Part shown: piece by piece, positions 5,943-57,588 of the stretch | Numbering within the stretch: position 1 is the first letter of the stretch | How the letters are laid out: each line of letters opens with the position of its first letter | Origin: Austropuccinia psidii | Taxonomy: Eukaryota; Basidiomycota; Pucciniomycetes; Pucciniales; Sphaerophragmiaceae | Direction: 5' to 3' | DNA: 64,000 bases | Assembly (NCBI GenBank): GCA_023105745.1 | Contig: JALGQZ010000014.1 | Span: 4,683,888 to 4,747,887, forward strand | Notes under the pieces: generated by a model | What the model was told of the DNA's origin: nothing | The model's input: only the letters and a program-made list of their open reading frames with translations | The model's database searches: none | Translations under genes and position numbers: made by a program

Positions 5943-6645
5943 TTAAGAAGGGAAGTGAGAGAAGTGATTTTTTATGAAACAACGATTAAAGTTGGAAAAG
6001 ACAAGAAAGGATTGAAGAGCCTTGATGTTTCTGGGCTGAGGCCAATTGAGGATTTGCTGATTCTTTGAAGAATCCATCTTGAGGCCTTCACTTGAAACAA
6101 CATAGCCCAAGTATTCCACACTTGAAACATGGAATACACACTTGGAGGCTTTAGAAAACAAATTATTCTCTCTCAGCCTTTGGAGGACAGAGGTCACATG
6201 TTTGACATGTTCTTCCTCAGAACTGGAGAAAACCATAATATCATCTAGATAAACCACAACAAACACATCCAAATATTCTGCAAATATATCATTCACTAAA
6301 TTCTGGGAAGAAGCTGGAGGATTGGTCAAACCAAATGGCATTACCAAATACTCATAACTACCATACTTGGTTCTAAAAGCAATTAAGTGCTCATCACCCT
6401 CTTTGATTCTCAGAAGTTTATATGCACCAGGAAGGTCTATCTTGGAGAAGATAGTGGAACCGTTGAATACAGTAAGGATCTGGTTCATAGGAGAGACAGG
6501 ATACCTGTTCTTCCTAGTGACAGCATTGAGTTTGTGGTAGTCAACACACAAACAAAGACCTCCATCCTTTTTCTTGACAAAAAGGACAGCTGCCCCTGTT
6601 GAAGAGGAGCTAGGTCTTATGAAACCTTTCTCTACATTCTATGAG
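5943..6645 (-). pseudogene. Element G: reverse transcriptase
   Basis: A 202-residue open stretch at 6551-5943 contains CVDYHKLN, the FSKIDL block with the first catalytic Asp, VMPFGL, and the VVYLDD catalytic motif. These are standard Ty3/Gypsy RT blocks. The usual Tyr after LGF is replaced in a diverged FLVFSNFNR segment, and PASSQ replaces the more usual PATFQ. The frame stops at 5943 where the RNase H region should continue, so the gene is broken. Confidence 0.88.
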
Positions 6646-6647
6646 AT

Positions 6648-7526
6648 TTAGGCCCTCAGTGTTTCTGACTCTTGGTTTGATAATGAGTAGATAACACCAA
6701 TTGGAGGTAGAAGACCCTCCAATTTGATATGATGATCACAGGCGCAGTGTGGACAAAGTTTCTCTGTTTTCACCTTGTAGAATACATCCAAATATTGGTG
6801 ATAAGCATGAGGGACTACCTTAAACACAGTTTCAATCTCTTCGGGCTCTTCCTCCTCATCCCACTGCTCCTCCAGGGAGGCATGAAAAGATAAAGGAGGA
6901 AGGTCCATATCCCCTTGAAAGAGATGAAGCAAAGATATAGCAACATCTTCTCCAACATCTTTTATCTCTTTGAAGACTTCATCTCTTAATGGAAGTAAAA
7001 ACTGAGGAGGAATGATGGAGGGGATATGGAAAGAAGAAGGAATGGATGGTGTCTTAAGTTCACCAACCAGAGAAACACTGTTGACAGCAGTGGCAAAGTC
7101 ATTACTAGGAGAAGGAAGAATTCCACTAGAATCTTTATGACTAGAATCATTGGTGATCAATCCATTTTTCCAATCAATAATGGGATTGAAATGGTAAAGG
7201 AAATCATAGCCCAATATCAGGTCTTCTCCTGTGGGTGAATCTATGATAAAAAAGTACCATTCAAAGCTTGGGAAGGAAGGCAAGTCAACTACCCACTTGG
7301 TATAATGGGTGATGAACAAGGAAGGGGATTTATTTGAATCCAGAATGAAAAGAGGAATATTTTCAGGGAGCTCTGACAGAGTCAATGAGTACTTGAGAAC
7401 AAAATTCTTTGCAATAAAAGAGTTTGTAGAACCAGAATCAATGAGAATACTATAGAAAATATCATAGACAGAAGGAAAAATAAGAAAATTTAAAGATTTC
7501 TTGACACTAGTATTCAGATTGCACAA
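6648..7526 (-). pseudogene. Element G: retropepsin and N-terminal RT linker
   Basis: A 292-residue open stretch. The aspartic protease active site is DSGST near nt 7440-7425, followed by a flap-like region and LILGYDFL (the usual ILG.DF motif). The C-terminal part reaches the pre-RT block with HHIKLEG, where Gypsy elements usually have DH.I.L. A frame break separates it from the RT at about 6645. It is non-functional as read because gag and RT are in other frames. Confidence 0.85.
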
Positions 7527-7579
7527 TTGTGCTCTTTAAGGAAATAAGTGAGAACCATTGAACACATCATGATCCCCAC

Positions 7580-8940
7580 TCAGGATTTTCCCTGCGTGCT
7601 AGGGAAGCCTCCTGATGACCCAGGCTTGTTCTGAGGTCTCTTGAAGAATTTATCAATTGGGTGCTTTCCACCACAATAAGTAGACAACCCCTCTTTTATC
7701 CTCCTCTCCTTTTCAGAACCAATTAATTTATTGTCCTTATTGAGGAGAGCAGCATGGGGCTTGTCCTTTGAAGATTGAAATTGCTTGCCCTTCTTATTCT
7801 TCTTTTGGTGAGGCCTCTTTGAAGATGAGTTCTGAGGAGGCCTAGCTTGATTGGACCCAGTAGCAGGAGGCTTCTTCTCTTGATTTCCAACCTTTTCTTT
7901 TTGCCTCTCATGATATCTTGTGTCTAATTCTAAAGTGACATCCATAAGTTCTTGAAGTGTGTCAAAGGTTCCAGGGTGAGAAGCCAACTGATCCAATAAT
8001 CTCGATCCCAATCCTCTTCTGTAAGCATGGATATAAGCTCTTTCCCCCCCAATCTCCAATTTTTGACATTAAGCTTCTGAAATCAGCAATGTACAAGAAT
8101 ACATGACCACTTTCCTTCATCCTGAAACTATCCACCTCCTGTTCAGCCTTTCTGACTTCATTGGGGTCACCAAACAGAGTGAATAATTGAGTTTCAAATG
8201 ACTGCCACTTATTGATGAGGTAGGAAGGATCTTCATTGGAAATATTTGAGAGATAGGGTTTAATCCACTATCCAGCTCTACCAGTGAGAAAAGAAGTTGA
8301 GTAAAGAACTTTCTTCCTTCCAGAGAAGAAATTTGCTGGGTCATTGTGGAAGATTAATTGACAGGATTGGAGAAAATCCTCTCAATTTATGAGTTTGAGT
8401 ACCATCAAAAGAATTGGGTGCCTTCATGGATGGAGTCTTGAAAGCAGGGGCTTTGGAATTGTCCCTGGGGGTAACTTCTTGAGTGAGTTGCCCCATGAAT
8501 TGAGTCATTTGCTCCATCATCTTGAGGAGACTTGGTTTGGTCTAAGAGACAAGAGGTTGATTAGAAAGGTCTAGATTAGAACCCTGAGGCACCTCTGGAG
8601 CATTTCCCAAAGCATCTGCCACTTGAGTCTCCCCAGAATCTTCCTCTTCCACAGACTCTTCCCCCTCTTCATCTTCAGCTTCCCCTAGCCTTGCTCTTGC
8701 ACCTTCAGACATGCCAGGGTAGCCACCCAAGAGTCCAGAGAAAGATATTGACCTTCTGGATTTTATTCCCCCTCTTCTTGAGGGTGATGCTCCTTCCATT
8801 GGTGGTCCTCTGTCCAATTTTGCACTCAGTTTATGAACTGATGGTGTGCAGTCAAGAGGAACCCTTGCTGTAGGAGTGAGAACAGCTGTATTTCTTTGAG
8901 ATCTAGTGTCCTTGGCTGGAGGGCTATTCTGAACTGGCAT
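7580..8940 (-). pseudogene. Element G: gag with degraded zinc knuckle
   Basis: Three pieces in different frames (8940-8542, 8344-8117, 8059-7580) make up gag. The first is acidic and low-complexity (EDEEGEESVEEEDSGE). The last has the gag C-terminal layout of a basic linker followed by a knuckle-like segment, YCGGKHPIDKF, in which expected Cys positions are lost. The start at 8940 is the first ATG after the leader. Frameshifts near 8540-8345 and 8117-8060 make it a pseudogene. Confidence 0.75.
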
Positions 8941-12963: not shown

Positions 12964-14393
12964 TGTCAGCCTGTGACTCAAAACCAGAGCACAAGCATGA
13001 CAGCCAAAATACCATAAACCAATGGTATAGCGAAGATATCACCAAAACATGGAGCTGAGCCAAATTAGCTCAAAAGGTATCAAACGAAAGAGGAAACTCA
13101 CCTCTTTCTGAAAATATAAGTCCCATCACCATAGGACAAGAAATAACAAAGTTATTCCTGCTCAAAGTTATTGCTGAGCATAAACCTTAATTTTCACCTC
13201 TCATCTAAAATCTAGAAGGAGAGGCTTAAGCCCATCAAATGGGTATTTAAAATGAAGCTCTAAGCTAGGGCTATCTAACGGTGCTAGCCAAACTGAGCTA
13301 GCACCAGTATTACTTGAGTTATGGTCAAATTCAGACCAAATAAGGGTGAACAAAACATTCACCTCTCATCTAACTTTTACTGTTTTAGTGCGAGATACCT
13401 GAAGTGGGGTCTTTTTGGAAAGAGCACAATCAGGGCTATCTGATGGTGCCATCCATTTCCTCATAGCTCAACTACAACAGAAGTTATTGGCCAAACAAGC
13501 ATAATACAGCTTTTGCCCAGACCACGCCAATGTACAAAAATACTTGTACATTGGATACCTTTGTCATATTTAATGATAACCATGTCAAGTTGGGTACCAT
13601 TGTGTAGATCTCATACAGAGCTATTCAATGAACCAATGTTGAGCTTGATATCTCAAAAACCGACAGAGTTATGACCATTTTAAGGTCAAAATCCCACCTG
13701 CTGTCATATACAGCCTTACCATGGGATACTATCCCATAACCATGAATATGAGGTGTCAAATAGACAAAGAAGCATGTTTTTACTTCAATACCTCATATTT
13801 CAGTCAATACTGGGGTCCCATACAGTTTCTGTACAGCATTCTACGCGTCATACATGTCAGAATCAGGCTGTGAGGTCCCCAGATGAAAATTTTCACCCTG
13901 TATTGGTGAAAACCGCCCAGATGTGGTTTCAAAACCACATCTGAGCCCAATGCAGGGTATACAGGTTGTTTGCAAACCACAAGCCTATCATGGAGAGTGA
14001 AAAATCTTCACTTCCTCTACGTGGAAAGGTCTAGCAGCCTTTCCACCTCAATTTCAGGATAAAAGGGGGGCTTTTCACAGTCAAAAGCCTTTCCTCATCC
14101 TGCTCTTGAATAACCTATGTAGTAAACTGTCAAAAACAGTTTTACTCTTGGTTAATAATCAGGTATAATTATAAGTTTTAATTATTGTAGTCTTTTATTA
14201 TTGTAACCCAACAGATAAAGCTGCACCCAGGGCTTTCAACAGCGCTCACCACCACTATAACCACTATAGTAAAGCCCTTTAAATTTATTTTTAATCATCT
14301 CAAAACCTTCTTAAAGAATTTTTACCATGTCACAAACATAGTTTTAGTTGTAAATAGCCTATATTACCACTCTTTCATAGTTTCATCCTGACA
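12964..14393 (+). repeat. 5' LTR of copy B
   Basis: TGTCAGCCTGTGACTC to CCTGACA. It carries two perfect inverted repeats. One has a 9-bp stem GGTGCTAGC/GCTAGCACC at 13280-13305 with an 8-nt loop. The other has an 11-bp stem CCAATGTACAA/TTGTACATTGG at 13527-13554 with a 6-nt loop. The promoter and polyadenylation site must lie in it but I cannot place them. Confidence 0.95.
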
Positions 14394-14412
14394 TTTTGGG
14401 GGCCTGGCCGTG
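14394..14412 (+). promoter_or_regulatory. Candidate primer-binding site next to 5' LTR (copy B)
   Basis: Directly after the LTR comes TTTTGGGGGCCTGGCCGTG. The equivalent blocks are TTTGGGGGCCTGGCAATG in C and TTTGGGGTCCTGGCCGTG in D. The position and the embedded TGG fit a tRNA primer-binding site. The sequence is not the usual initiator-Met site, and I cannot name the tRNA. A self-priming site is an alternative. Confidence 0.5.
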
Positions 14413-14440
14413 TTTTTTAACTTTTTTTGGACCTTATAAA

Positions 14441-14988
14441 GTAAGTCTTTTCTCTTTTTTATGACTTATTGATAAGTGTTTTATCTTTTTTAGGCGTAAT
14501 TTCTCTATTTAAATACATATTTTATATATATTTATCCTTTTTTATATATATACTCATATTATAAGAGTATTATTCACGTGGTTAATACCCACCCCAAATA
14601 AACATTTTTGGCGTGTTTTGTATATAAAAACACATAAGCCATCAATAAGTCCTGTATTCTTGACTGAATAAGGACACCTCTGACTGAAAAACCATCGGTT
14701 GAGGCGTGGATTAAGTGTATTGTTAACTCAATAACACCTATACAAAGCCACTTGTACAGAATACACTTGAAAACCCAAGTGTATCTATGGGATACTGGCA
14801 CACAAACAGTGTGACAGGGTACCAAAAGCTGTAATTCTGACATGGAATTGTTGATTCAATTACACTGTCATTATACAGGGCACATTGTAGTAACATTAAA
14901 GCCCAGAGGCCAACCTTAGATGTGCAAAGCCAGCATTTTTAAGAAGTCTTAACTGACATAACCCCTCCCTCTTCTGCCTTGATTTCAG
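14441..14988 (+). other. Predicted leader intron of copy B (548 nt) that builds the ORF1 start codon
   Basis: The donor GTAAGT at 14441 is a perfect consensus site. The acceptor is a pyrimidine-rich stretch ending TTGATTTCAG at 14988, with branch-like CTGAC near 14953. Exon 1 ends in A and exon 2 starts TGGAAGAA, so splicing creates ATG GAA GAA in the ORF1 frame. D has the same donor, acceptor and junction (57588 to 57044). C keeps an AG|TG acceptor. The intron holds no conserved ORF. Splicing is inferred from motifs only. Confidence 0.6.
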
Positions 14989-16057
14989 TGGAAGAAAATT
15001 ATATCCCACTTGAGACCCAGTCACAGGCCAACACACCAGTGACACCCTCAGAACCAGAGGGCAGCAAGGGCAAAGGACAGAGGCACAGTGAAGGTCTCAT
15101 CACAGCCAAGAAGTGGACACCAATAGCCACTCAGAGAAGTAGAAAACCACGAAACTCTGCATCCATACAAGGTAAACCAACCTTAACCACTTGTACAGGA
15201 AAGATTACAATTATTAACCCAGTTGTAACTTCCAAAGGCAAACTGCCCAAATCAGCAGATAACAAATTTGTACAAGGCACAGTCAAAGGTAAATACCCTA
15301 AGAACATAGAGTTTTTCACTGCTTGCAAACACTGATATGTCCCCTGCATACCTCAGAGACCTTGGCTTCCAAAGGAACCAGCCAGAGGATAGAGCAGGAA
15401 TGTCTAGAACCAGAAGACCTGAAAGAAGACACATTGGACACAGTGGTGGATGGCAAAACAATGAGGGAGATAATATCAACCTTGCCATTTACACTCCAAT
15501 TCAACAGAAACCTCAAACCAGAGGACTGGAAGGATATGGATCAAGTTCTTCAGATCCACCAACTCCTCAAAGATTTATTTCAATGGAGCATGGACAACAA
15601 GAGGTTCAACCTAGCAACTCACTGGGCAAAACTGGGATCAAGTTGCCAGAAGATCTGTCTCAAAGAGATAGACTTCAAAGACCTTATGGTAATCACCAAG
15701 GGTTGGAATCCTACCAGGCAGCACAGACTCCTGAAGACAAGGGCACAGAGGATAAGGGAGAATCAAGCCACTATCCTAGCTATAGAAGAACAGTTGACCC
15801 AGACAGGGCCTACTCAGATTCGTTCAGGTTCACAAGGAGCAGGCCAAATCAGCTCTCCAGTGGCTTCACACCATTCAGAAACCAGCAGATCAGTGGCCAA
15901 GAGTCACCATTCTTCACAATTCCAGGAAGTTTCCAGGAGAAGACAAGGAAACAAGGGCAAGAACAAAACCTCCTTCAACCAGAGGAGGAAAGAGTCAGAC
16001 CCCATGATCCAGAAGCTGTTGGATTTAGTAAAGGAAGTACACAAGAACCAGAAGTAG
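14989..16057 (+). CDS. Predicted spliced accessory protein ORF1-ORF2 (333 aa), copy B
   Basis: The exons are 14989-15288 and 15357-16057. The first base of the start codon comes from the leader exon at 14440. The joined frame is exactly in phase (split codon G|AG) and skips the ORF1 stop at 15333-15335. The first 100 residues are Ser/Thr/Lys-rich and low-complexity. The second exon has a more protein-like core ([33 protein letters not shown]) and a basic tail with [11 protein letters not shown], suggestive of RNA binding or nuclear import. D encodes a 333-residue counterpart with no stops. C, from another family, keeps KGWTP and the same intron position. I recognise no named domain. It could be an extra Gag-like subunit rather than a regulator. 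Confidence 0.6.
15289..15356 (+). other. Predicted 68-nt intron containing the gag-pol start codon, copy B
   Basis: The donor AAAG|GTAAAT is at 15289. A branch-like CTGAT lies at 15331-15335. The acceptor CATACCTCAG ends at 15356. D has an intron of identical length and matching ends (56743-56676). C has a 62-nt version (30921-30860). In all three the intron encloses the stop of unspliced ORF1 and the ATG of gag-pol. Removing it joins ORF1 to ORF2; keeping it leaves gag-pol translatable. Confidence 0.6.
15333..15339 (+). promoter_or_regulatory. UGA-N-AUG stop-restart site between ORF1 and gag-pol, copy B
   Basis: TGATATG: the ORF1 stop TGA is separated by one base from the gag-pol ATG in the +1 frame. 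D has TGATATG in the same place and C has TGAAATG. Tight stop-start arrangements are known to allow termination-reinitiation in some retroelements and fungal viruses. Its use here is inferred from position and conservation. Confidence 0.5.
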
Positions 16058-19000
16058 TTGTAAACCACTCTAGAATCAGTAGTCCTAGTAATAGAAACAT
16101 TACCCCCACTCAGACTGAAAATAACATTGTCACATCTGAGAGTAACATCAACAGTGATACACTGTGGTTACAAGTGTCCCAATATGCTGAACAATCTGCA
16201 AAGCAATTTGCAGAAATTAAAGCCAGCCAAGAGAGGATGAGACAAACTCAAGCCTCCTTGGAACAAATAGTTAAGAATCTTCAAGAAGGATATGCTCAAC
16301 TGAGCAAAGCCTCTGAAGAATCCAAAAAAAGACTGAACCAAGTCTTTGAAGAACAACACCACAGCACAAGGGACAGGGAGTGTCTGGATCAAGACATTAA
16401 CAAATTGTTTAATGCCTATCATAGCTTAAAGCCCCAACCACAAGGCCAAGCTATGGAGAATCCATATCAACCAGATGACATCAAACCAGATGCCATGATG
16501 TTGAATAAGGCAAGATCTCCATCACAATACCAGGATGGAGATGGCATGTCTTATTCAGAGAAGGAAGCCTTGAAACAGCTTCCTGAGGCCTCAAACTGGC
16601 CCAAATTCTCTGGATCAGGAGAATATAATCATATGGAACTCATAGATTATATTGATGGACTCTTCATTGATGTACCCAGCATACCAGATTACTGGATTAC
16701 TGCTAGACTGAATACTGCATTTGAAGGTCATGCAAGTATATGGTACACAGAAATGAAAGAAATCCATGGCAGAAGAAACTGGCCATGGTGGAAGAGTCAA
16801 ATAATCCAAAAGTACAGTAATGGAACTTGGATATGGCAAAAGACCATGTCATTTGAAAATGACAAATACTCTGTGGACAAAGATCCATATGAGTGGTGTC
16901 TCAGACAGTCTAAAAGACTTAAAGCCATTGATCCTCAGATGAACATCCAGATGAGGAATCACAAACTTCTGACACAACTGCCAGGAGAATTAGAGCATGC
17001 AGTGAAATGCAGATGCAACCAAAATTGCATTCTACATGACATAGCCAATACCTTACAAGACATAAGGAAAAGGACAAATATAGGGAAATTCACCCCATAT
17101 AAGACCAGTGGTTTCAAAGAGAAACAACCTTTCAGGGTGGAGTTTAAAGACAAACCCAGAGAAAGAGTGGCAGAAGTGGCAAGGAAAAAGAATTCTTGTC
17201 ACAATTGTGGTTCAACAGACCACTATGCCAACAACTGTCCAAAAGCAAAGAAAAAAGTCTATGCTATAGAAAAAGTCCCTGAAGAAGAACCTCCAACAGA
17301 AGATTCTGAATCAGACTCTATGGGAGATGCCATCAGAGAACCATCTGATGATGATCAAGAGCCAAGAGAGGAATTTCTAGTGGAATACCAAGAGGAAACC
17401 CCATTGGAAATCCAGGATATACAGTTGGAAGCAGGCATGCCACAGGACACTGCCAACAAGAGCTTGTGCAAACACACACAAGATGCACAAACATTCCTGG
17501 TTACACCAACCAAAGGAATGGGTTTTATAAATGAAACAGCTACAAAAATGACTGTATGTATTGACAGTGGAGCACATTGCTCCATAGTGGCCAGAAATTA
17601 TCTGGATAACCACTTCCCAAACTGGGAAAAACAGCTCTTGCCCACTAAGGCAAAGAACTTTAAAAGTGCATCAGGGAAGATGACTTCCATTGGGACAATT
17701 ATAAAAGAGATAATTATACCCCACAGGAAGGGTAATATCAGACTCAACCCAGGGTTTGTAGTGCTTGAAGATGCCCACATCCAAGGGTTTTTACTGGGAA
17801 CAGATTACCAGAGGATGTATGGCATAGATATTTACAACAGTAAAAGCAGGCACATTACCATTGGTACCAACAAGGAAAAGAAATTTTCACTTGATATATA
17901 CCACATATCTTCACAAGATCCACTAGAAGAACTCTTGAAGGAATTCAAGGAGGGACAGTTTATCACTACCCTCACCAGTAAACAAAAACTAAGTTTACTG
18001 AAGATGCTGAGGAAGAAAAGACCAGCATTTGCCATTGGTGAAGAACCACTAGGCAAGATTAAAGGCCATGATATAGAACTATATCTGGATGTGGAAAGAC
18101 CTTATCCACACATGCTGAGGAGACCTCCTTATCCAGCAAGTCTGGAAACCAGGAAAGAAATTGAAAAACACATCAATGAACTCCTGGACATGGATGTCAT
18201 CAGGAAGATTGGACATAATGAACTAGTGGAAATCACCACTCCTGTCCTGATCACCTGGCATGATGGCAAGTCTAGATTGTGTGGAGACTTCAGAGCCCTG
18301 AATAACTACACAAAAGCAGACAGGTACCCTATACCAAGGATACCTCATGCCTTGGATAAGCTGGCAAAAGCCAAATACATAACCAAGATGGATTGTATGA
18401 AAGGCTTCCACCAAAAAGGAGTTAAACCAAACTCTATCAAGTTGCTCAGAATAATATGCCATATGGGCATATATGAGTACACCAGGATGCCATTTGGCAT
18501 CAAGAATGCACTAGCCCTTTTCCAAAGGATGATGGACACCACATTTCAAGAAGAAATAATGGAAGGCTGGATGGTAGTATATATTTATGATATCATTATA
18601 TACTCAGAGACATGGGAAGACCATGTACAATACATAGACAGAGTGCTAAGTAAATGTACACCCATCAATCTGAAAATTTCACTTAAAAAGTGTAATTTTG
18701 GCCAACAAGAGCTACTAGCTCTAGGACACAAAGTCTCAGGCCTTAGTCTGGCAATTGACCAGAACAAAGTAGCAGCAGTACTGCAAAAGCCAGTACCAAA
18801 GAACATCAAAGAGATGCAATCTATCCTTGGATTTGCTAGCTACTATAGGAATCACATCAAAAGCTTTGCCCACATAACTAGTAGTTTATACAAGTTATGC
18901 TCAAACAATGTAGTTTTTGAAATAACCAAGGAAAGGAGGGATGCATATGAGAGGATCAAATATGAACTCACAAATTCACCTGTGCTCATCTTGCCTGACT

Positions 19001-21165
19001 TTGAGCTACCATTCAAGTTATATATAGATGCAGCATTCAGTCAAGGCTTGGGAGCAGCCCTTCACCAAAGACAAATTGTGGATGGTGAACCAAGAGAAGG
19101 TGTAATATGTTACATCTCCAGGCAGCTGCAAGATTCAGAAGCCAGGTATGGGGCCACCCAGACAGAGTGTCTATATCTAGTCTGGGCTCTAGAAAAACTC
19201 CATTATTACTTGGAGGGTGCAGTCTTTGAAGTCTACACAGACTGCACAGCCTTGAAGTCTTTACTAAACATGAAGACTACTAATAGACACATGCTGAGAT
19301 GGCAAATAGCCATCCAGGAGTATAGAGGGAACATGACCATCATATACAAGGAAGGTAAAGGCCACACCAATGCAGATGGCCTTAGCATATGGCCACTGGA
19401 CAATGTCAAAAGGAATCCAGCTTATGACCCTGAAGTTGCTGCAAAAATTCCTATCCATTTTATGGAAATAAATAGGAAGAAAAACTTCAGATTCTCTGAA
19501 TGGGCACCAGGTAGTGGTACCCTTGACAGTGGAAACACTGATTCAGAAGGGACAGAAACCCCCATACTGGGAATAAGTTCCTCAGAACTGCAAAATGAAT
19601 TTTTCAATGAAGTACTGAAATCTTATGCTAAACACAAACAGTGTAGCATACTACTCCAACTCCTTCAACAAAAATACAGGAGCCCAGAACTGGAAACCCA
19701 GCTGGAGGAACCCTGGTTGAGGGCCTATAAGGACAATAAATTCTTCCTTATAGATGGCCTGATTTATCACAGAGAAAAGCACACCAGTGCACTCACAGTA
19801 ATAGACAGAGACCACATCTCTTTAATCCTGCAGGAATGCCATGACTGCCCCTACATGGGACACATGAGTGAGGACAGGACTAAAGAGAGGGTAGCAAGCA
19901 CAGCTTGGTGGCCCAAGTAGGAGCAAGAGTTGAGTGAATACATCAACACTTGTGAAAGATGCCAAAAGGCAGATAGAAAGCATGGGAAGAAATATGGGTT
20001 GCTTCAACACATAGAAGAACCCAAGCACCCATGGGAAACCATCAACATGGACTGGGTCACAGGACTTGTCCCAGGAGGCAAAGAAAACTACAATGCCTGC
20101 CTAATCATAGTTGATAGGTTCAGCAAAAGCATGAGATGTCTACCATGCCATAAAGAGGACACAGCCATGGACACTGCTCTGTTATTTTGGAATAACATCA
20201 TATCCACCTGTGGAGTCCCTAAGATGATAATTAGTGACAGGGACCCAAAATTCACATCTGAATTTTGGACCAATTTATATGACATGCTAGGCACCAAGCT
20301 TGCTTTTTCCACAGCTTACCATCCACAAACAGATGGCCTAGCTGAGAGGATGATCCAAACAATGGAGGACATCCTCAGGAGGTTCTGTGCCTTTGGCATG
20401 GAATACAAGGACCATGAGGGATAAACCCATGATTGGGTCACCCTCTTACCAGCAGTCCAACTGGCTTATAATACAAGCCAGCACTCTACCACAGGAAAAA
20501 CACCTGCACTGGTAGAGAAAGGGTGGAATCCCCTTTTACCTGTGGATCACTTGAAGAAAAATCTTCTGACCATCCACCCCACAGCCAAAGACTTCCATGA
20601 TATGTGGAAGAAAGCCTGTGATACTGCTGCCAAATGCATAGCTGAGGCCAAAGAGTATAACAAGCAAAGGTGGGACAAATCACATACGGAACCTGACTTC
20701 AAGGAAGGGGTCCAGGTGTTAGTGTCTACACTGAACTTTAACAATCTCAAAGGACCCAAGAAAATGAGAGACTCATTTGTAGGGCCCTTCACTATCATTA
20801 AGTTGATAGGGAAGAATGCAGTAGAGGTCAAGCTCACTGAGGAGTTTTCTAGGAAACACCCAGTCTTTCCAGTGAGCCTGGTCAAACCATACTTCCAAAC
20901 AGAGGAGGATAAATTCCCCTCCAGGAAGAAAAACATCACTCCACCAGAAATAGTGGAAGTAGAAGACTCTGCTGGACCTGTGAGTAAAATCATCAGGGCC
21001 AGAAAAATCAGACTTAATGGGAAGGATCAGAGACAATATCTAGTCAGATTCAAGAACCAGACAGCTGACAAAGACAAATGGTTGGCAGAGGATGCCATAC
21101 CAGATGGGAACCTTCATCTAAGGAGATTCAGAGCCTCTAGGAGGACTGAACAGTCTCATCAATGA
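15337..21165 (+). pseudogene. gag-pol: Gag-Pol polyprotein, copy B, broken
   Basis: ORF3 starts ATG TCC CCT inside the small intron and is open for 1527 codons. About 240 N-terminal codons overlap ORF2. Then come a coiled-coil gag segment (roughly residues 270-350), a CCHC knuckle [14 protein letters not shown] (about 621-634) and DSG protease (about 742). RT, RNase H, integrase and chromodomain follow. Defects: a 27-bp loss before DSG; YIDD changed to YIYD (TAT at 18586-18588), which removes a metal-binding Asp; TAG at 19918-19920 in place of Trp after WWPK; and TAA at 20422-20424 in place of Tyr. The last piece, 20542-21165, ends in the chromodomain. The layout equals that of A, so it is a dead copy of the same lineage. 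Confidence 0.93.
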
Positions 21166-21189: not shown

Positions 21190-22619
21190 TGTCAGCCTCT
21201 GACTCAAAACCAGAGCACAAGCATGACAGCCAAAATACCATAAACCAATGGTATAGCCAAGATACCACCAAAACATGGAGCTGAGCCAAATTAGCTCAAA
21301 AGGTATCAAAAGAAAGAGGAAACTCACCTCTTTCTGAAAATATAAGTCCCATCACCATAGGACAAGAAATAACCAAGTTATTCCTGCTCGAAGTTATTGC
21401 TGAGCATAAACCTTAATTTTCACCTCTCATCTAAAATCTAGAAGGAGAGGCTTAACCCCATCAAATGGGTATTTAAAATGAAGCTCTAAGCCAGGGCTAT
21501 CTAACGGTGCTAGCCAAACTGAGCTAGCACCAGTATTACTTTAGTTATGGCCAAATTCAGACCAAATAAGGGTGAACAAAACATTCACCTCTCATCTAAC
21601 TTTTACAGTTTTAGTGTGAGATACTTAAAGTGGGGTCTTTTTGGAAAGAGCACAATCGGGGCTATCTGATGGTGCCATCCATTTCCTCATAGCTCAACTA
21701 CAACAGAAGTTATTGGCCAAACAAGCATAATACAGCTTTTGCCCAGACCATGCCAATGTACAAAAATACTTGTACATTGGATAACTTTGTCATATTTAAT
21801 GATAACCAGGTCAAGTTGGGTACCATTGTGTAGAGCCCATACAGAGCTATTCAATGAACCAATTCTGAGCTTGATATCTCAAAATCCGACAGAGTTATGA
21901 CCATTTTAAGGTCAAAATCCCACCTGCTGTCATATACAGCCTTACCATGGGATAATATCCCATAACCATGAATATGAGGTGTCAAATAGACAAAGAAGCA
22001 TGTTTTTACTTCAATACTCCATATGTCAGTCAATACTGGGGTCCCATAAAGTTTCTGTACAGCATTCTACACGTCATACACGCCAGAATCAGGCTGTGAG
22101 GTCCCCAGATGAAAATTTTCACCCTGTATTGGTGAAAACCGCCCAGATGTGGTTTCAAAACCACAGCTGAGCCCAATACAGGGTATACAGGTTGTTTGCA
22201 AACCACAAGCCTGTCATAGAGAGTGAAAAATCTTCACTTGCTCTACGTGGAAAGGTCTAGCAGCCTTTCCACCTCAATTTCAGGATAAAAGGAGGGCTTT
22301 TCACAGTCAAAAGCCTTTCCTCATCCTGCTCTTGAATAACCTACGTAGTAAACTGTCAAAAACAGTTTTACTCTTGGTTAATAATCAGGTATAATTATAA
22401 GTTTTAATTATTGTAGTCTTTTATTATTGTAACCCAACAGATAAAGCTGCACCCAGGGCTTTCAACAGCGCTCACCACCACTATAACCACTATAGTAAAG
22501 CCCTTTAAATTTATTTTTAATCATCTCAAAAACTTCTCAAAGCATTTTTACTATGTCACAAACATAGTTTGAGTTGTAAATAGCCTACATTACCCCTCTT
22601 TCATAGTTTCATCCTGACA
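21190..22619 (+). repeat. 3' LTR of copy B
   Basis: It has the same ends and 1430-bp length as the 5' LTR. It starts TGTCAGCCTCTGACTC (one change from the 5' copy) and ends CCTGACA. CTGAG follows as the target duplication. Confidence 0.95.
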
Positions 22620-30108: not shown

Positions 30109-31077
30109 CTACTTCTTTGGAAAAGATTGGTTCAATCTTTCCTCTTCCTTGTCTTTGAATTCCATCAGAGTTCTTTCCCTAATGAATAAATTGTCCATGG
30201 CTGTCTTCTCTTTCTTGACAATCCTATAATTCTGCGGGTAAGGCTTGTTCCACTTGGGCTTTTGCTTGCCCTTCTGGTTGATCTTTGGAGTTTTCTTGGG
30301 CTTCTTTGGCACTTGTTGAGGTGGAGTTTTGCTTGTAGAGGCTTGGGGAGCTTCCACTGGGCTGTTTTCCTTGCCTTGGGCCAACTTCTTCTTCTGGTCC
30401 TCTGATAACATGCTTTGGTTTTTCAACCAAGCTTTTATCTGTTGGACTTGTCCTTTGCAAGACATGGGTGTCCATCCCTTCAGAAGTTCCTCTTTCTTTT
30501 CTGGCCCCATGAACTTCTTCACTTGAATATATGAGCTCATGGTGCCTATCCAAGTACTTGGGAGAAGTTCCCACTGTTGCTGTTTTGCTTCCATAAACCA
30601 GTTCTTTTACTGAGACTGTTATATCTCTATTGTTTCCTGTTGAACATGATTCAGGTCTAACAACAGCAATAGCAGTTATGTAGCTTCTGGACTCTCAATA
30701 AGAGTGTCAAAGGTATGGGATAACCTTTGGGAACTTGTGGAAGCTCTGGAACCCTCCATTTGTGCCTCTCCTCTGGGCTGACATTCTTGTCTTTTGGGTT
30801 TATGACTTGAATGTCCTGGTCCAGATCCATTTGATTGGATGGAGTAGTTACTTCCACTTCTAGTAGGACTCATTTCACATCAATATAAAGCAATTAAGAC
30901 TAATAAATAAATTGAATTCACCTGCTGGACCTTTAAAGGGTTCTTTGGTAATTAAAGCCCTTGGTTCTGGGCTAGTTTGAATTTCAATACTTGACTCTGA
31001 GGCTTCAGAGTGTGAAGAACTTTTTCTGATGGATGACAATAGAGAATAAAAAATATTAGAAGTTATTTTATCAAACA
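30109..31077 (-). pseudogene. Element C accessory ORF1-ORF2 unit (broken)
   Basis: Exons: 31077-30922 (ORF1 part, MFDKI if the A of the ATG comes from the leader exon), then 30859-30109. Splicing the 62-nt intron gives a split codon G|AA in frame, continuing VEVTTPSNQMDL. The second part has KGWTPMSCKGQVQQIKAWL, which matches KGWNPTRQ of B and D, and a basic tail KINQKGKQKPKWNKP. One frameshift between 30657 and 30594 breaks it. Conservation of both the intron position and the ORF2 core in a second family is the main reason to believe the unit is real. Confidence 0.6.
30860..30921 (-). other. Predicted 62-nt intron with embedded gag-pol start, element C
   Basis: The donor GCAG|GTGAAT is at 30921. 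The acceptor TCCTACTAG ends at 30860. Inside it the unspliced ORF1 stop TGA (30877-30875) is followed after one base by ATG AGT CCT (from 30873), the gag-pol start. Both families begin this protein Met-Ser-Pro. Confidence 0.55.
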
Positions 31078-31585
31078 CTAAAAAGAACCTATAAACTAAG
31101 CTTATTGGATAGAGTTGTTTTAATGTAATTTATGGCAAATTACGTCAAAAAGAAAGAAAAATGTCTAAGATTGAAGAAAAAATGTTTTTAGTAAAAATTT
31201 TAATTTTTAAATTTTTTTATTTGAGTTTAAATTTTCTTTAAAGAGATAATAATTATGAAATTAATAAGTTATTGATCAAAATAGTATCATTATTCACTTT
31301 ATACTAGAATAACTCAAAGAATAAATTTCAAGTCTCTGATTTGAAAAAGCCACTAGTTAGAAAAAAGAAATTTATTTCAAGTCACTCAATAGTATATTGT
31401 TTCAAACAATATATTTAAGAAAAAAATAACTTTATTAATATTATAAAGATTATTTATAAGGTACAAGTCCCAAAAAAGCCAATATTAAAGTAAATACGGC
31501 AATTTTACATCAAAAAACAGTAAAATAAGGTCTAGAATATGATTTATGTCCCAAAATTGGTTAAAATCATTGCCAGGCCCCCAAA
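31078..31585 (-). other. Element C leader with post-LTR block
   Basis: AT-rich untranslated leader. Next to the LTR, at 31585-31567 on the minus strand, is TTTGGGGGCCTGGCAATG, equivalent to the candidate primer site of B and D. The acceptor TTCTTTTTAG|TG ends at 31078. The donor expected near ACCTTATAAA (about 31460) reads ATAATC rather than GTAAGT, so it appears to have decayed. Confidence 0.5.
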
Positions 31586-33727
31586 TGTAATTTTTTTCTA
31601 TGAAACTCTTGATAATAGTGACAATATAAAGAGTACTATGACTGTCCTCAGTAGAAATATATAATATAATAGGATATTATAACCACAAATGGAAATAAAA
31701 TTATTAAAAATAATTATATAAAAAAATAAATTCAATTATTATTATATGAAATAATAATAGAAAAAATTTAATTTAATTATTGTCATAGTCACTGACAATT
31801 ATAACAATAGAAAGTGTAAAGCTCTTAATGAGACAATTAAGTGTGGAAAATATGAATATTTAACAACTTATAAATAATATATAAACATTATTTATCAAAT
31901 AATTATAACACACACTGTGCAGAAATAAATCTCAAAGAAAAATTCTATCTAAAAAAACTAATGATAGATAAAAAAATATAGCATTTTATAGAAAACTTAC
32001 TTATAATATAGCTTTAATAAAACAAGTCAAATACAACAGTTATTCTATTAAATAGTTATTATAAGTTAAAAATATTCCATAAATAAATATTTTTAAATGA
32101 TAAATCATCTTTTTAAGATAAAAAATATGAGTAAGGAGTTTTTGAGAGGAATTTGTGGATTTTAAAAGATATTTTAAAGACAACAATTTCATAAAAAAAA
32201 TATATTATAGGTGATTACAACAATAATCTAATTTCTATGATTTCAATTCTTTAATTTAAGACTTATAAACAATAGAATACTTAAGAAATACTTTAATAAT
32301 AGGATTTTATATATAATAAAGCTTTACCTGTTTAAATGTCTAATATGATTGGATTGATAAGTGATGATGGACAAAAACAGTGATTAAAAGACTCTTTTTA
32401 TGTCTACAGAGCAGCTCTCATGATTTATAATGGATGTAGAGGGCGTGCTCAGGTCAAAACCGAAAGACCTTGCTTACAAATAAGGTTCTTAGCTTAAGGC
32501 AACTTATTTTTAATTCCAATTTAAAGTTACCAGTGTTATTCTTGACTTCAAGTAACTTTAATCCTCACTTAATCTGTCATTTTGAGTTTTAATAGAAAAA
32601 AAGTTTATTTATATTAAAGTTCATCACATGAACAATTTAAAAATAAAGTTTCAAGCAGAAATCTCTCAAACTCAATTTTTAATTAATTTTTAAAGAAATC
32701 TTAATTTTCTTTAAGAGTAATTAAAAAAGTAAATTTCCCGGCTAATTACCCAGGAATTCTATTTAAAAAAGATACTTAAAAATTAATTTATGAATAGATA
32801 ATATTAAATTGTAGGCTGGGTGAAATCTTCAAGCAAATCCATTAAAAATTGGATTTTTAATGAATTTTTGAAGTTATTACTATTTTTCCATGTAAAATAG
32901 CAATACAAACTAAACCTTAACTTTTGATAAGGTTTTAATTCTTGTAAACTCAATGTTTTGAGCTTATTTAAGCTTTGACAGGTCTCGAAAATTCAATATA
33001 AATCCTGCATATTGGGATTTACCCTTTGTCAGCTTGAAATTCCTGTCCAATTTGGGATAAAACCAGTTCAAACTTTAAGGTTGGATCAAAGTCTAATCTC
33101 AAAGTTTAAATAAGGCTGAAAATCCTCCAATACAGGTGGACAACCTTAATTGAATCCTTGCAGATCCAAAAAGTTGGGTACCCCAGCTCTGTTTGGTCTT
33201 TTTCCTTTGTCCCACCTTTTTGTGTGGATTTTGCCCTTTTATTTATTTAAATCCATACTATGGCCTTAAACACTTTTAAATTGAGCTCACACAGGATTCA
33301 CATTCTGTATGGCAAATCCTTAACCAATTCAGTAAATATACACAACACCTCAATTTTAACTAAAATTTTTGTAAGTTTGCATAAACCTTGTGCAACTTTA
33401 AATTTAAGCGTATTTAAGCTTAAATTTAGCAATTTTAAAAAAATGTTAAAAAAGTTACATTAGTACTGTGAGATTCTTAAATCTTCCAATAACATAAGAA
33501 ATAAGCCTTTTTGGTTGTAACACCCTATGGTTGTACCCTAGGTTATTTTTGATGTAGAATCCAAAAATGACATAATATTTATAACTTTGTATATCCAAAA
33601 AAAGTTATACTTATTTCTTATTATTTTTATTTTAAATTCAATTGTAAAGTCTGTTGAAGACTAAATCAACTGTATATAAAGTCATTTGTGGCCTTATGGG
33701 ATGTTATAGATACCTCACAGGCTCACA
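31586..33727 (-). repeat. 5' LTR of element C (about 2142 bp)
   Basis: The plus-strand start is TGTAATTTTTTTCTATGAAAC and the end is CCTCACAGGCTCACA (sense TGTGAGCCTGTGAGG...TTACA). It shares its inner 0.9 kb with 24051-24984. Its outer part matches the LTR-like tracts at 38824 onward and 40754 onward. No ORF is convincing. Confidence 0.85.
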
Positions 33728-41800: not shown

Positions 41801-42309
41801 TCAAAATCAAACTTCTAAGAAAAACTCTTTTCCATGAGATCTTTCATTAATTTTTTTTGAAGAAATCTTAATTTTATTTTAAAATAATTAAAAGAGTTAT
41901 TTTCAAGGCAAAATAGCAAAGAATACTATCAATAAGAGATACAGAGAATGTGATTTAAACACCAGCAACATTAAAGTTTAAGCTGTGTGAATCTCTCAAG
42001 GAAATCCATTAAGATTTGGATTTTCTAAAAATCTTTGAAGTGCTTGTTCTATTCCCACATAAAGTAGAAATAAACACTGAGAATCAAATTTTGATAAGAT
42101 TTCAATTCTTTTAACTTTAATTTGAAATTTTTTAGGCTGATTTAAGCTTAAATAAGATCTTACAGTCCTTAAACCCTTGAGTAAAATCCTGCATAGAGGG
42201 ATTTACCCTTTACCAACTTGTAATTTCTTTCCAAAATAGGAATGAGTCAGTTTGAACTCTAATTTTAAATTAAGCTCTCATCTTGAAGCTTAAATAAGGT
42301 TGAAATTCG

Positions 42310-44048: not shown

Positions 44049-44807
44049 ACACTGCAGTACAGCACAAAAGCCTAATTGGGGCTTTTGTGTATCCCAAAAG
44101 TTAGATACCCTGGAAGTCTTTTGCCTTTTTCCCTTTGTACTACCTTTTTGCATGAAGTTTTCCCTTTTATTTAGTTTAAGCCATATGATGGCTTTAATCA
44201 ATTAAGTTTGAGCCCATTGAGGATTTAAGTAATTTATTTAGAATCCCTAGCCAATTAAGTAAATATACACAACAAATCAAATTGAATTGTATTTTTTTGA
44301 GTTGGCATAAACCCTATGCAACCTTAAAATTAAGCTTAAATTTAACAATTTTAAATTTTCAGGATTTTGTTTTCAAATTTTGTCATTGAACTGTGAGATT
44401 ATTCAATATTTCAATAAAACTAGAAATAGCCATTTCTGGGTATGCACCCTAGGAATCTACCCCAGATTATGTTTGGTGTATAATTCAAAAATGACATAAT
44501 ATTGATAACTTGGGTTATATAAAAAAATTTATTCATTTTTTGTTATTTTTTGCTTTAAATTCATTTAAAAATCAGGTTTATGACTGAATCAAATTTATAG
44601 AAAGTCATTTTTGGGCTTATGGGTATGTCATACTTGACTCACAGGCTCACAAATCCAAAAATCAAATGATAATTATAAATTTGTTTATCCAAAAATAAAG
44701 TTATTGTAATTTCTGATTTTTTTCTTTGAAAGCATTTTATAGAATTAAATCTTTAAAATAATAATTGTGGCCTTATTGGTATTTTATAGATACCTCACAG
44801 GATCACA

Positions 44808-53700: not shown

Positions 53701-56695
53701 CTGCTTTTGTGTAGTTATTCAAAGCTCTGAAATCTCCACACAGTCTAGACTTGCCATTGTGCCAGGTGAGTAGGACAGGGGTGGTGATTTCCACTATTTC
53801 ATTATGTCCAATCTTCCTGATGACATCCATATCCAGCAGTTCATTGATATGTTTCTCAATTTCTTTCCTGGTTTCCAGGCTTGCTGGATAAGGAGGTCTC
53901 CTAAGCATGGGTGGATAAGGTCTTTCCACATCCAGATATAGTTCTATATCATGGCCTTTGATCTTGCCTAATGGTTCTTCACAAATGGCAAATGCTGGTC
54001 TGTTCTTCCTCAGCATCTCCAGTAAGCTTAGTTTCTGTTTACTGGTGAGGTTAGTGCTAAAATGTGCCTCTCTGAATTCCTTCAGAAGTTCTTCTAGTGG
54101 ATCTTCAGAAGATATCTGGTATATATCAAGTGAAAATTTCTTTTCCTTGTTAGTACCAATGGTGATGTGCCAATTTTTACTGTTGTAAATGTTTATGCCA
54201 TACATCCTCTGGTAATCTCTTCCCAGTAAAAGCCCTTGGATGTGGGCATCATTAAGCAATACAAACTCTGGATTGAGTCTGATATTACCCTTCCTGTGGG
54301 GTACAATTATCTCTTTGATAATTGTCCCAATGGAAGTCATCTTCCCTGATGCACTTTTAAAGTTCTTTGCCTTAGTGGGCAGGAGTTGTTTTTCCCAGTT
54401 TGGGAATTGGGTATCCAGATAGCTTCTGGCCACTATGGAGCAGTTTGCCCCACTATCAATGATCAGTGGATGCTGAGCATTGTCAATGCAAACAGTAATT
54501 TTTGTGGCTGTCCCATGTATATATGCTGTTCCTTTGGTTGGTGTAACCAGGAATGTTTGTGCATCTTGTGTGTGTTTGCACAAGGTTTTATTAGCAGTGT
54601 CCTGTGGCATGCCTGCTTCCAACTGCATGTCCTGAATTTCTAGTGGGATTCCCTCTTGGTATTCCACTAGAAATTCCTCTCTTGGGTCTTGATCATCATC
54701 AGATGGTTCTCTGATGACATCACCCATGGAGTCTGATTCAGAATCCTCTGTTGGAGGTTCTTCCTCAGGGACTTTCTCTATGGAATAGACTTTTTTCTTT
54801 GCCTTTGGACAGTTGTTGGCATAGTGGTCTGTTGAACCACAATTGTGACAAGAATTCATCTTCTTTGCGACTTCTGCCACTCTTTCTTTGGGTTTGTCTT
54901 TAAACTCTACCCTGAAAGGTTGTTTCTCTTTGAAACTGCTGCTCTTATATGGGGTGAATTTCCCTATATTAGTCCTTTTCGTTATGTCTTGTAAGGTGTT
55001 GGCAATGTCATATAGAGTGCAATTTTGGTTGCATCTAAATTTTACTGCATGCTCTAGTTCTCCTGGCAGTTGTGTCAGAAGTTTGTGATTCCTCATTTGG
55101 ATGTTCATCTGAGGATCAATGGCTTTACGTCTTTTAGACTGTCTAAGACACCACTCATATGGATCTTTGTCCACAGAGTATTTGTCATTTTCAAATGAAA
55201 TGGTCTTTTGCCATATCCAAGTTCCATTACTGTACTTTTGGATGATTTGACTCTTCCACCATGGCCAGTTTCTTCTGCCATGAATTTCTTTCATTTCTGT
55301 GTACCATATACTGGCATGACCTTCAAATGCAGTATTCAATCTAGCAGTGATCCAGTAGTCTGGTATGCTTGGTACATCAATGAAGAGTCCATCAATATAA
55401 TCTATGAGCTCCATATGATCATATTCTCCTGATCCAGAGAATTTGGGCCAGCTTGAGGCCTCAGGAAGCTGTTTCAAGGCTTCCTTCTCTGAATAAGAAA
55501 TTTCATCTCCATCCTGGTATTATGATGGAGATCTTGCCTTATTCATCAACATGGCATCTGGTTGATATGGATTCTCCATAGCTTGGCCTTGTGGTTGGGG
55601 CTTCAAGTTATGGTAGACATTAAACAATTTGTTAATGTCTTGGTCCAGACAATCCCTGTCCCTTTTGCTGTGGTGTTGTTCTTCAAAGACTATATTCAGT
55701 CTTTTGTTGGTTTCTTCAGAGGCTTTGCTCAGTTGAGCATATCCTTCCTGAAGGTTCTTAACTATCTGTTCCAAGGAGGCTTGAGATTTTCTCATCCTCT
55801 CTTGGCCAGCTTTAATTTCTGCCAACTGCTTTGCAGATTGTTCAGCATATTGGGACATTTGTAACCACAGTGTATCACTGTTGATGTTACTCTCAGATGT
55901 GACAATGTTATTTTCAGTCTGAGTGGGGGTAATGTTTCTATTACTAGGACTACTGATTCTAGGGTGGTTTACAACTACTTCTGGTTCTTGTGTACTTCTT
56001 TCACCAAATCTAACAGCTTCTGGATCATGGGGTCTGACTCTTTCCTCCTCTGGTTGAAGGAGGATTTGTTCTTGCCCTTGTTTCCTTGTCTTCTCCTGGA
56101 AACTTCCTGGAATTGTGAAGAATGGTGACTCTTGGCCACTGATCTGCTGGTTTCTGAATGGTGTGAAGCCACTGGGGAGATGATTTGGCTTGCTCCTTGT
56201 GAGCCTGAAGGAATCTGAGTAGGCCCTGTCTGGGATAACTGTTCTTCTATAGCTTGGATAGTGGCTTGATTCTCCCTTATCCTGTGTGCCCTTGCCTCCA
56301 GGAGTCTGAACTGCCTGGTAGGATTCCAACCTTTGGTGATTACCATCAGGTCCTTGAAGTCTATCTCTTTGAGACAGATCTTCTGGAAACTTGCTCCAAG
56401 TTCTGCCCAGTGACTTGCCAGGTTGAACGTCTTGTTGTTCATGCTCCGTTGGAATAAATCTTTGAGGAGTTGGTGGAGCTGAACAGCTTGATCCATATCC
56501 TTCCAGTCCTCTGGTTTGAGGTTCTTGTTGAATTGGAGTGTGAATGGAAAGGTTGATATTATCTCCCTCATTGTTTTGCCATCCACCACTGTGTCCAAGG
56601 TGTCCTCTTCCAGGTCTTTCGGTTCTGGACAAGCCTTCTTTGTCCTCTGGCTGGTTCCTTTAGAAGCCAAGGTCTCTGAGGTATACAGGGGACAT
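50724..56695 (-). pseudogene. gag-pol: Gag-Pol polyprotein, copy D, broken
   Basis: It starts ATG TCC CCT at 56695, as in B. TAA at 56662-56660 replaces a Gln codon. The frame then reopens through the ORF2 overlap and the gag coiled coil to TAA at 55522-55520. From 55477 it carries the gag core, the [14 protein letters not shown] knuckle, DSGAN protease and RT with intact YIDD, up to TAG at 53209-53207. A TGA follows at 52885-52883 in RNase H. Integrase loses its first catalytic Asp to a foreign patch at 51790-51979, which also shifts the frame. The piece 51881-50724 keeps [14 protein letters not shown] and the chromodomain. Confidence 0.93.
51790..51979. other. Foreign GC-rich patch replacing part of the integrase core in D
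   Basis: Between VDRFSKS and the segment HPWET the other copies have about 70 bp encoding MDWVTG and NACLII. D instead has about 190 bp with no similarity to family 1, including CCACTCGGGCCTGG and a TTGGGGGGGATTCGGGGGG tract. It is more GC-rich than its surroundings. Its origin is unknown to me; repair filler DNA or an organelle-derived insert is possible. Confidence 0.7.
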
Positions 56696-57043
56696 ATCAG
56701 TGTTTGCAAGCAGTCAAAAACTTTATGTTCTTAGGGTATTTACCTTTGACTGTGCCTTGTACAAATTTTTTATCTGCTGATTTGGGCAGTTTGCCTTTGG
56801 AGGTTACAACTGGGTTAATAATTGTAATCTTTCCTGTACAATTGGTTAAGGTTGGTTTACCTTGTATTGAAGCAGAGTTTCGTGGTTTTCTACTCCTCTG
56901 TGTGGCTATTGGTGTCCACGTTTTGGCTGTAATGAGGCCTTCACTAAGTCTTTTTCCTTTGCCCTTGCTGCCCTCTGGTTCTGAGGGTGTCACTGGTGTG
57001 TTGGCCTGTGACTGGGTCTCAAGTGGTATGTAATTTTCTTCCA
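55975..57043 (-). CDS. Predicted spliced accessory protein ORF1-ORF2 (333 aa), copy D
   Basis: Exons are 57043-56744 and 56675-55975, with the A of the start codon supplied by leader base 57589. Length and split codon equal those of copy B, and no stop interrupts it. The C-terminal ~70 residues (from [10 protein letters not shown] through [11 protein letters not shown] to VHKNQK) are almost identical to B, with one Thr/Ser change. More substitutions occur in the middle (QRTKKACPEPKDL against [13 protein letters not shown]). The protein has no domain I can name. Staying open in a copy whose gag-pol has several nonsense codons suggests, but does not prove, constraint. Confidence 0.6.
56676..56743 (-). 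other. Predicted 68-nt intron containing the gag-pol start codon, copy D
   Basis: Minus-strand donor GTAAAT, branch-like CTGAT and acceptor TATACCTCAG, the same length as in B. It contains TGATATG (56699-56693), in which TGA ends unspliced ORF1 and ATG starts gag-pol. Confidence 0.6.
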
Positions 57044-57588
57044 CTGAATCAAACAGGAAAAGAGGGCTTATGTCAGTTAAGACTTCTTGAACGGCTGGTT
57101 TTGCACGTCTAAGAATGGCATCTGGGCTTGTATATTACTAAAATATGCCCTTGTATGATGACAATGTAATTAAATTAACAATTAAACATCAAAAATACAG
57201 CTTATTGATATGTGATAGACTGTTTGTATACCAATATCTTACAGAATACTTGTAGTTAGCAAGTATAATCTCTGAAAGGTGGTGTATTACAAGGAAATTG
57301 AGTTAACAATGTGCCCAAACACGCCTCAACTGTTGCTTTATCAGTATGAGCTGTCTTGATTCAATTAAGAATTAAGACTGTATTAGTGGCTTACAAGTGT
57401 TTTTATATACAAAACACACCAAAAATACTGGTCTTGTGGTTATTAGCCACATGACAGATACTCCTTAAAATATGAGTATTTTTTTAAAAAAATAGAGAAA
57501 AATATATAAAAATATATATTTCTAAAGAAAATGACGCCTCAAAAGGTAAAACAAGTGTCAATAAATGATGAAAAAGAGAAAAACTTAC
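57044..57588 (-). other. Predicted leader intron of copy D (545 nt)
   Basis: The minus-strand donor is CAA|GTAAGT at 57588. The acceptor CCTGTTTGATTCAG ends at 57044, with a pyrimidine-rich run before it. The joined junction reads CAA|TGGAAGAA, giving ATG GAA GAA as in B. The candidate primer-binding block TTTGGGGTCCTGGCCGTG lies at 57636-57618, in the short leader exon. Confidence 0.6.

Follow-up and report, generated by a model that had tools for sequence, protein, structure and literature searches.

Two predicted introns and a possible exchange of start codons by splicing in Ty3-type retrotransposons of Austropuccinia psidii

Two diverged families of Ty3-type LTR retrotransposons in the genome of Austropuccinia psidii carry a short predicted intron, intron 2, that encloses both the stop codon of one reading frame, ORF1, and the start codon of gag-pol. 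We consider it moderately probable that these elements exchange start codons by splicing, Gag-Pol being made from unspliced RNA and an ORF1-ORF2 protein from doubly spliced RNA. The fuller version involves two introns: splicing would assemble a start codon, A|TG, from a nearly ATG-free leader and would also remove the gag-pol start, leaving each RNA form with one usable first start, and it would do so in two or more diverged families of a rust genome. To this version we give even chances. The scope is one species and two families.

On unspliced RNA ORF1 would have no start; ribosomes would scan through a long leader with almost no ATG, and the gag-pol ATG within intron 2 would be the first start, or nearly the first, that they meet. 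Removal of the upstream intron 1 would bring an exon ending in A against an exon starting with TG, creating the ORF1 start codon, and removal of intron 2 would take away the ORF1 stop together with the gag-pol ATG. The doubly spliced RNA would then encode the ORF1-ORF2 protein; the coding sequence of its second part overlaps gag-pol in a different frame. RNA that had lost only intron 1 would carry ORF1 with its stop and, a single base further on, a possible site of restart. The anatomy, conservation, reading frames, selection and ATG depletion reported below are direct observations on the sequence.

The elements and the predicted intron around the gag-pol start

The haploid genome of A. psidii is just over 1 Gb and consists mostly of Gypsy/Ty3-type repeats, according to the available parts of two reports (PMC8063080, PMC12774611). 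The window, by which we mean the whole 64,000-nucleotide stretch analysed here, contains three elements related in pol: B on the plus strand, and D and C on the minus strand (Table 1). B and D are ~94% similar and were treated as a single family, and the pol of B and C is 51% identical. The two LTRs of B correspond over 1430 nt, as is characteristic of LTR elements, and its pol order of RT, RNase H and integrase is that of Ty3. Pfam matches above cutoff in the gag-pol ORF of B were RVT_1 (residues 977-1133), RT_RNaseH (1221-1329) and Integrase_H2C2 (1490-1527); zf-CCHC at residues 620-636 scored 20.0 bits against a cutoff of 20.8. B, D and C are Ty3-type LTR retrotransposons. We take ATAAAAGG to act as the TATA box of B. 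The window copy of C is decayed, with its upstream acceptor altered (Table 1) and stops in the gag-pol frame. No relative was found among the viral contigs searched.

Other repeats also lie in the window. Three ORFs occupy 5943-8059 on the minus strand, and 5946-6566 is 33% identical to the RT region of B, indicating another diverged retroelement. LTR pieces at 38987-42308 and 44091-44820 are 69-74% like the LTR of C and are remnants of further families. Three tandem copies of a 98-nt unit (63497-63787) lie beside a 152-codon ORF (63315-63773), and 60512-60961 holds a 119-nt direct repeat whose copies, 331 nt apart, are 97% alike.

Table 1. Features of elements B, D and C, in window coordinates
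Feature	Position	Strand	Remark
5′ LTR of B	12964..14393	+	96.9% to 21190-22619
TATA-like motif ATAAAAGG in 5′ LTR of B	14059	+	motif search
Primer-binding-like site of B, TTTTGGGGGCCTGGCCG	14394..14410	+	adjoins LTR end
Predicted intron 1 of B	14441..14988	+	GTAAGT..TTTCAG, 548 nt; base 14440 is A
ORF1 exon of B	14989..15288	+	starts TG; (A)TG GAA GAA AAT.. only with intron 1 removed
Predicted intron 2 of B	15289..15356	+	GT..AG, 68 nt
ORF1 stop TGA of B, in unspliced RNA	15333..15335	+	TGA in 31/31 rows
gag-pol ORF of B	15337..19920	+	ATG within intron 2, in 31/31 rows; Pfam RT, RNase H, integrase zinc domain
ORF2 exon of B, including stop	15357..16057	+	overlaps gag-pol in a different frame; open in 26/31 rows
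3′ LTR of B	21190..22619	+	LTR pair comparison
Predicted intron 1 of D	57044..57588	-	donor ACAA|GTAAGT
ORF1 exon of D	56744..57043	-	direct reading of sequence
Predicted intron 2 of D	56676..56743	-	GT..AG, 68 nt
Predicted intron 1 of C	31039..32000	-	donor within LTR; primer-binding-like site inside; acceptor AG is AT in window copy
ORF1 exon of C	30922..31038	-	direct reading of sequence
Predicted intron 2 of C	30860..30921	-	GT..AG, 62 nt; TGA 30877-30875, ATG 30873-30871
Probable third intron, within C ORF2	30657..30724	-	GTT..TTAG, read from sequence

The genome searched for copies comprised 1,015,390,075 bases on 84 contigs. Both families are large: a first look gave 42945 candidate places for C and 2538 for B, which are lower bounds or loose counts. 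Of the B-family candidates 40 were scored, and the sample consists of 31 rows, namely 30 genome loci (window B among them) and D. The B loci were picked by DNA similarity to 14984-15500, so variation in that stretch is understated. For the C family 70 places were fetched (30 and 40) and 69 were measured, L068 being left out. The primer-binding-like motif TTTTGGGGGCCTGGCCG occurs in 30/31 B rows and 29/30 C loci.

The original prediction held that the stop of ORF1 and the ATG of gag-pol lie within one GT..AG stretch and that removing this stretch joins ORF1 to ORF2. Direct reading of B, D and C bears out both points. In each element the stretch holds the in-phase ORF1 stop TGA followed, one base on, by the gag-pol ATG, and once it is removed ORF1 runs in frame into ORF2 through a split codon, G|AG in B and D and G|AA in C. 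The sharing of this design by two diverged families, and the conservation of splice sites and phase that was proposed as a check on it, are likewise seen in the genome copies. In the B family intron 2 is 68 nt long in 31/31 rows, with GT in 30 (one has GC) and AG, TGA and ATG in all 31, the full TGA-T-ATG being kept in every row. In the C family 68 of the 69 measured copies carry the intron, at 63 nt in 66 and 60 nt in 2, and it is bounded by GT..AG in 67/68. The stop-start pair there is TGA-N-ATG in 59/68 copies, TAA-N-ATG in 4 and otherwise in 5; G ends the preceding exon in 67/68 and AA begins the following one in 68/68. A branch-like motif lies ~20 nt before the AG, CTGAT in B and TTGAC in 62/68 C copies, and may be the branch point. 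Across the copies sampled, the intron 2 pattern exceeds chance in both families.

A predicted ORF1 start codon and the ATG-poor leader

Despite its name, ORF1 is not a self-standing ORF. No in-phase ATG lies between ORF1 and the preceding stop in any of 31 B rows or 30 C loci, and in all 61 copies ORF1 reads instead as an exon. The bases at its 5′ edge are CAG|TG in 31/31 B rows and CTAG|TG in 30/30 C loci. We surveyed the leader for three donor patterns, with no condition on the preceding base, and counted a site as recurrent when it was present in 8 or more copies. The sole recurrent GT[AG]AGT in the B leader is at 14441, in 31/31 rows and always after A; the sole one in the C leader occupies one column in 27/30 loci, again always after A, with a weaker A|GTGTGT-like site ~90 nt further on. 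The donor follows the primer-binding-like site in B and falls within the LTR in C, as a related LTR ends at 31585. Either splice would produce A|TG followed by ORF1, giving MEENYIP in B and MSSIRE in C. Among B copies the length just upstream of the acceptor varies by a few bases, while downstream a 1-nt change occurs only in L002, L016 and L021, as expected for an intron next to an exon. Splicing of intron 1 would thus build the ORF1 start codon in both families.

The leader is also poor in ATG. Mean observed counts against those expected from dinucleotides were 1.48/9.76 in intron 1 of B and 0.03/3.47 from ORF1 of B to the gag ATG; for C they were 0.93/13.48 in intron 1, with none in 12/27 copies, and 0.14/1.58 from ORF1 to the gag ATG. 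The gag region of B, used as a control, gave 27.06/28.13. Apart from 14461, the last common ATG before that of gag-pol is 13921 (29/31 B rows), which is upstream of the TATA-like box. The ATG at 14461 is present in 26/31 B rows, 20 nt past the intron 1 donor, and opens a three-codon uORF in window B. Intron 1 of window B contains four ATGs, more than the family norm, and this may be an aged copy. Other trinucleotides are scarce in the leader, namely GAT in C (4.37/13.54) and partly TAG in B (3.19/8.97), so composition explains part of the ATG scarcity. The depletion nevertheless suggests that unspliced RNA would be scanned as far as the gag-pol ATG.

These observations alter the role given to intron 2. 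It had been read as a retention switch setting the ratio of accessory protein to Gag-Pol, and the anatomy, phase, conservation, occurrence in two families, selected ORF2 and the existence of a copy without the intron all agree with that reading. However, the fate of intron 2 by itself cannot determine that ratio, since ORF1 would acquire a start codon only when the upstream intron is removed as well. Similarly, a retained intron 2 does keep the gag-pol ATG, which lies inside it, but Gag-Pol is more likely to come from fully unspliced RNA since the leader is nearly ATG-free. We therefore infer splicing of both introns, with translation from either RNA. In C, where intron 1 carries the primer-binding-like site, the spliced RNA would not be copyable in the usual way.

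The rival nearest to the ratio switch is termination-reinitiation. Intron 1 would always be removed; with intron 2 kept, ribosomes that had translated ORF1 and terminated at TGA would begin again at the ATG and make Gag-Pol, and with intron 2 removed they would make ORF1-ORF2. Stop and following start are indeed only a few bases apart, as in known pairs of this kind, and the one-base spacer is found in both families (31/31 rows in B; 59/68 copies and the 4 with TAA-N-ATG in C). Moreover, no ATG intervenes between the ORF1 start and the gag-pol ATG in 30/31 B rows and 25/29 C loci, and stop-start coupling is described for non-LTR retrotransposons in the available part of PMC5902531. Yet intron 1 is also ATG-poor, which would be irrelevant if intron 1 were always removed. 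In addition ORF1 of B has 100 codons, which is long for an upstream ORF from which efficient restart is expected. We regard this explanation as unlikely, though it stands better than those considered below.

Selection, gene models and a copy without intron 2

Between B and D, ORF1 differs at codon positions 1, 2 and 3 by 1, 3 and 14 changes, and the changed codons of the overlap are 18 synonymous and 29 non-synonymous in the ORF2 frame, and 7 and 40 in the gag-pol frame. Among shared variants, defined as those present in at least 2 of the 31 B rows, ORF1 has 17 synonymous and 7 non-synonymous. In the overlap the ORF2 frame has 21 synonymous, 22 non-synonymous and 0 stop (expected ~25, 70 and 5%) and the gag-pol frame 9, 34 and 0; gag downstream of the overlap has 25 synonymous and 20 non-synonymous, and 27 and 14. 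Variants seen once are near neutral (synonymous, non-synonymous, stop: ORF2 39, 90, 6; gag-pol 25, 99, 9), and five sub-windows of the B overlap follow the same trend with small numbers. In C, ORF1 has 12 synonymous, 3 non-synonymous and 0 stop variants. Over ORF2b the counts are 44, 14 and 1 in its own frame and 6, 52 and 0 in the gag-pol frame; over ORF2a the pattern is reversed, with 8, 4 and 1 in the gag-pol frame and 2, 11 and 0 in that of ORF2a. Loci L031-L060 of C were picked by ORF2 protein similarity, which lowers the non-synonymous counts there. Judged by these counts, ORF1 and ORF2 are under purifying selection.

The overlapping gag-pol frame was compared with 2000 shuffles of each tested copy that preserved the ORF2 protein and codons. 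The shuffled sequences carried a mean of 8.2-9.2 stops in the gag-pol frame. Six of the 7 copies carry none (0/2000 shuffles as low) and D carries 1 (2/2000), although the copies were hand-picked and nearly all have open frames. By this comparison the gag-pol frame is kept stop-free in the tested copies. The reverse test is weak, with 1.1-1.5 expected stops in B (not significant) and 2.9-3.4 in C (11-25/2000). The number of open copies among the 31 B rows is 29 for ORF1, 26 for ORF2 and 23 for gag-pol across the overlap, and the third frame has 7-16 stops. At 15/30 C loci the gag-pol frame runs without a stop as far as the locus extends, ~759 codons, and one has ATT for ATG. Against constraint on this frame, gag-pol in the B overlap lacks it at the amino-acid level (9 synonymous, 34 non-synonymous) and has stops in 8/31 rows.

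Protein searches returned, among the best 120 matches listed for each query, only gene models of A. psidii MF-1. Of the best 120 relatives of the B protein, 105 span the ORF1-ORF2 junction, 83 without a gap within ten residues and 22 gapped near it; 11 of the best 120 relatives of C span their junction. Among the best 120 relatives of the C gag-pol start, 40 begin exactly at the intron 2 ATG, and the annotation thus contains both forms. The ORF1-ORF2 protein had no Pfam match above cutoff. Structure models of the two families have mean pLDDT of 56.9 and 63.6 and share, at low confidence, a predicted order of disordered first part, helical core, linker and C-terminal helix; a Foldseek comparison of these models with the PDB gave a best E of 8.3. 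Profile comparison of the B and C ORF2 proteins did not reach significance (E 0.14 and 0.13, against 0.74 for a reversed control) and homology between them is not claimed. The probable third intron of C was noticed at loci L031-L060 as well as in the window copy, and at L031 only an AG at 66 nt yields the protein join of the gene models across it. The gag-pol frame at this locus stays open across that probable intron.

The same models bear on a second alternative, that intron 2 is spliced and ORF1-ORF2 made but from another upstream exon or start, A|TG being coincidental. Some MF-1 models join ORF1 elsewhere upstream (e.g. ..RYWHTNSVPDI), and the donor survey covered the three patterns scanned. 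However, the 5′ ends of the models are themselves predictions and disagree with one another, whereas a single strong donor recurs after A (31/31 and 27/27) and an exon starting with TG is found in both families. This alternative seems to us decidedly doubtful.

One C-family copy, L054 (contig C3, ~23.92 Mb), reads AAGGTCCTACAG|AAGTGGAAG with intron 2 exactly absent; its intron 1 remains in place, and so does the intron 3 donor. It ranked first in a genome search favouring unbroken copies, with 83/83 residues matched; no second C copy of this kind was found among 150 scored of 14223 candidates. Such an exact loss is what copying of spliced RNA would leave, and the retention of intron 1 fits the need for the primer-binding-like site inside it. 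It is a single case of 69 and both ends of the deletion share AG, and a chance deletion could also have produced it. That nothing is spliced at all, ORF1 and ORF2 being relics or open by chance and L054 having lost the stretch through an ordinary deletion at a 2-nt repeat, is very improbable: gene predictors do tend to join open frames and only one copy lacks the intron, but both frames are under selection, splice sites and phase are kept in two families and the loss in L054 is exact.

If start codons are indeed exchanged through splicing, the gag of fungal Ty3 elements would conceal an accessory gene under selection, and the choice between accessory protein and Gag-Pol would be made by that exchange. 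The long ATG-poor leader would be explained, and so would many of the 'hypothetical proteins' that a rust annotation leaves unnamed. Moreover, the separation of genome RNA from mRNA in such elements would become testable in existing reads.

Comparison with known systems

This design was not described for fungi in the titles and abstracts searched, whose coverage leaves subscription journals mostly outside, and the available part of PMC12210899 makes no mention of gag or splicing. The closest precedents are CERV of Cer1, P4 of rice tungro bacilliform virus (RTBV) and BARE1. More distantly, the UAAUG coupling of non-LTR retrotransposons also sets a stop codon beside the next start; stop and start overlap there (PMC5902531, in part), whereas in the A. 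psidii elements they are one base apart and both lie inside a predicted intron.

In BARE1 of barley a short optional intron of an LTR retrotransposon likewise alters the protein made, and the translated RNA differs from the replicated one (PMC3735527, in part). Splicing of BARE1 is described as yielding Gag only, whereas here it would replace Gag-Pol by a protein in another frame. A switch of the BARE1 type was rejected for our elements: when intron 2 is taken out, the gag-pol ATG goes with it and ORF2 is opened.

P4 (ORF IV) of RTBV depends on a splice in the long RNA that connects a start in the leader with another frame, and a downstream ORF is reached by scanning of ATG-poor sequence, as described in the available part of PMC5902531. 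RTBV is a pararetrovirus in which a leader uORF with its own start is fused to a distal ORF; in the A. psidii elements the start codon itself would straddle the splice junction and that of gag-pol would be lost.

Cer1 of C. elegans is, like B, D and C, a Ty3-group LTR retrotransposon, and it makes its extra protein, CERV, from a spliced mRNA, where splicing here is predicted (PMC10309623, available part). The same source places CERV partly in a non-gag frame with Gag-Pol on the unspliced RNA, and in the A. psidii elements the selected ORF2 frame lies over gag-pol. The two differ in that exons 1-3 of CERV are in the gag frame and its main ORF follows pol (PMC10309623), whereas in our elements the second frame runs over the beginning of gag-pol, and splicing would create the start codon. 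CERV is needed for export of unspliced Cer1 RNA, a role tested experimentally (PMC10309623). The likeness is one of gene arrangement, and by analogy our guess is that the ORF1-ORF2 protein may act on genomic RNA, for example in its export or packaging.
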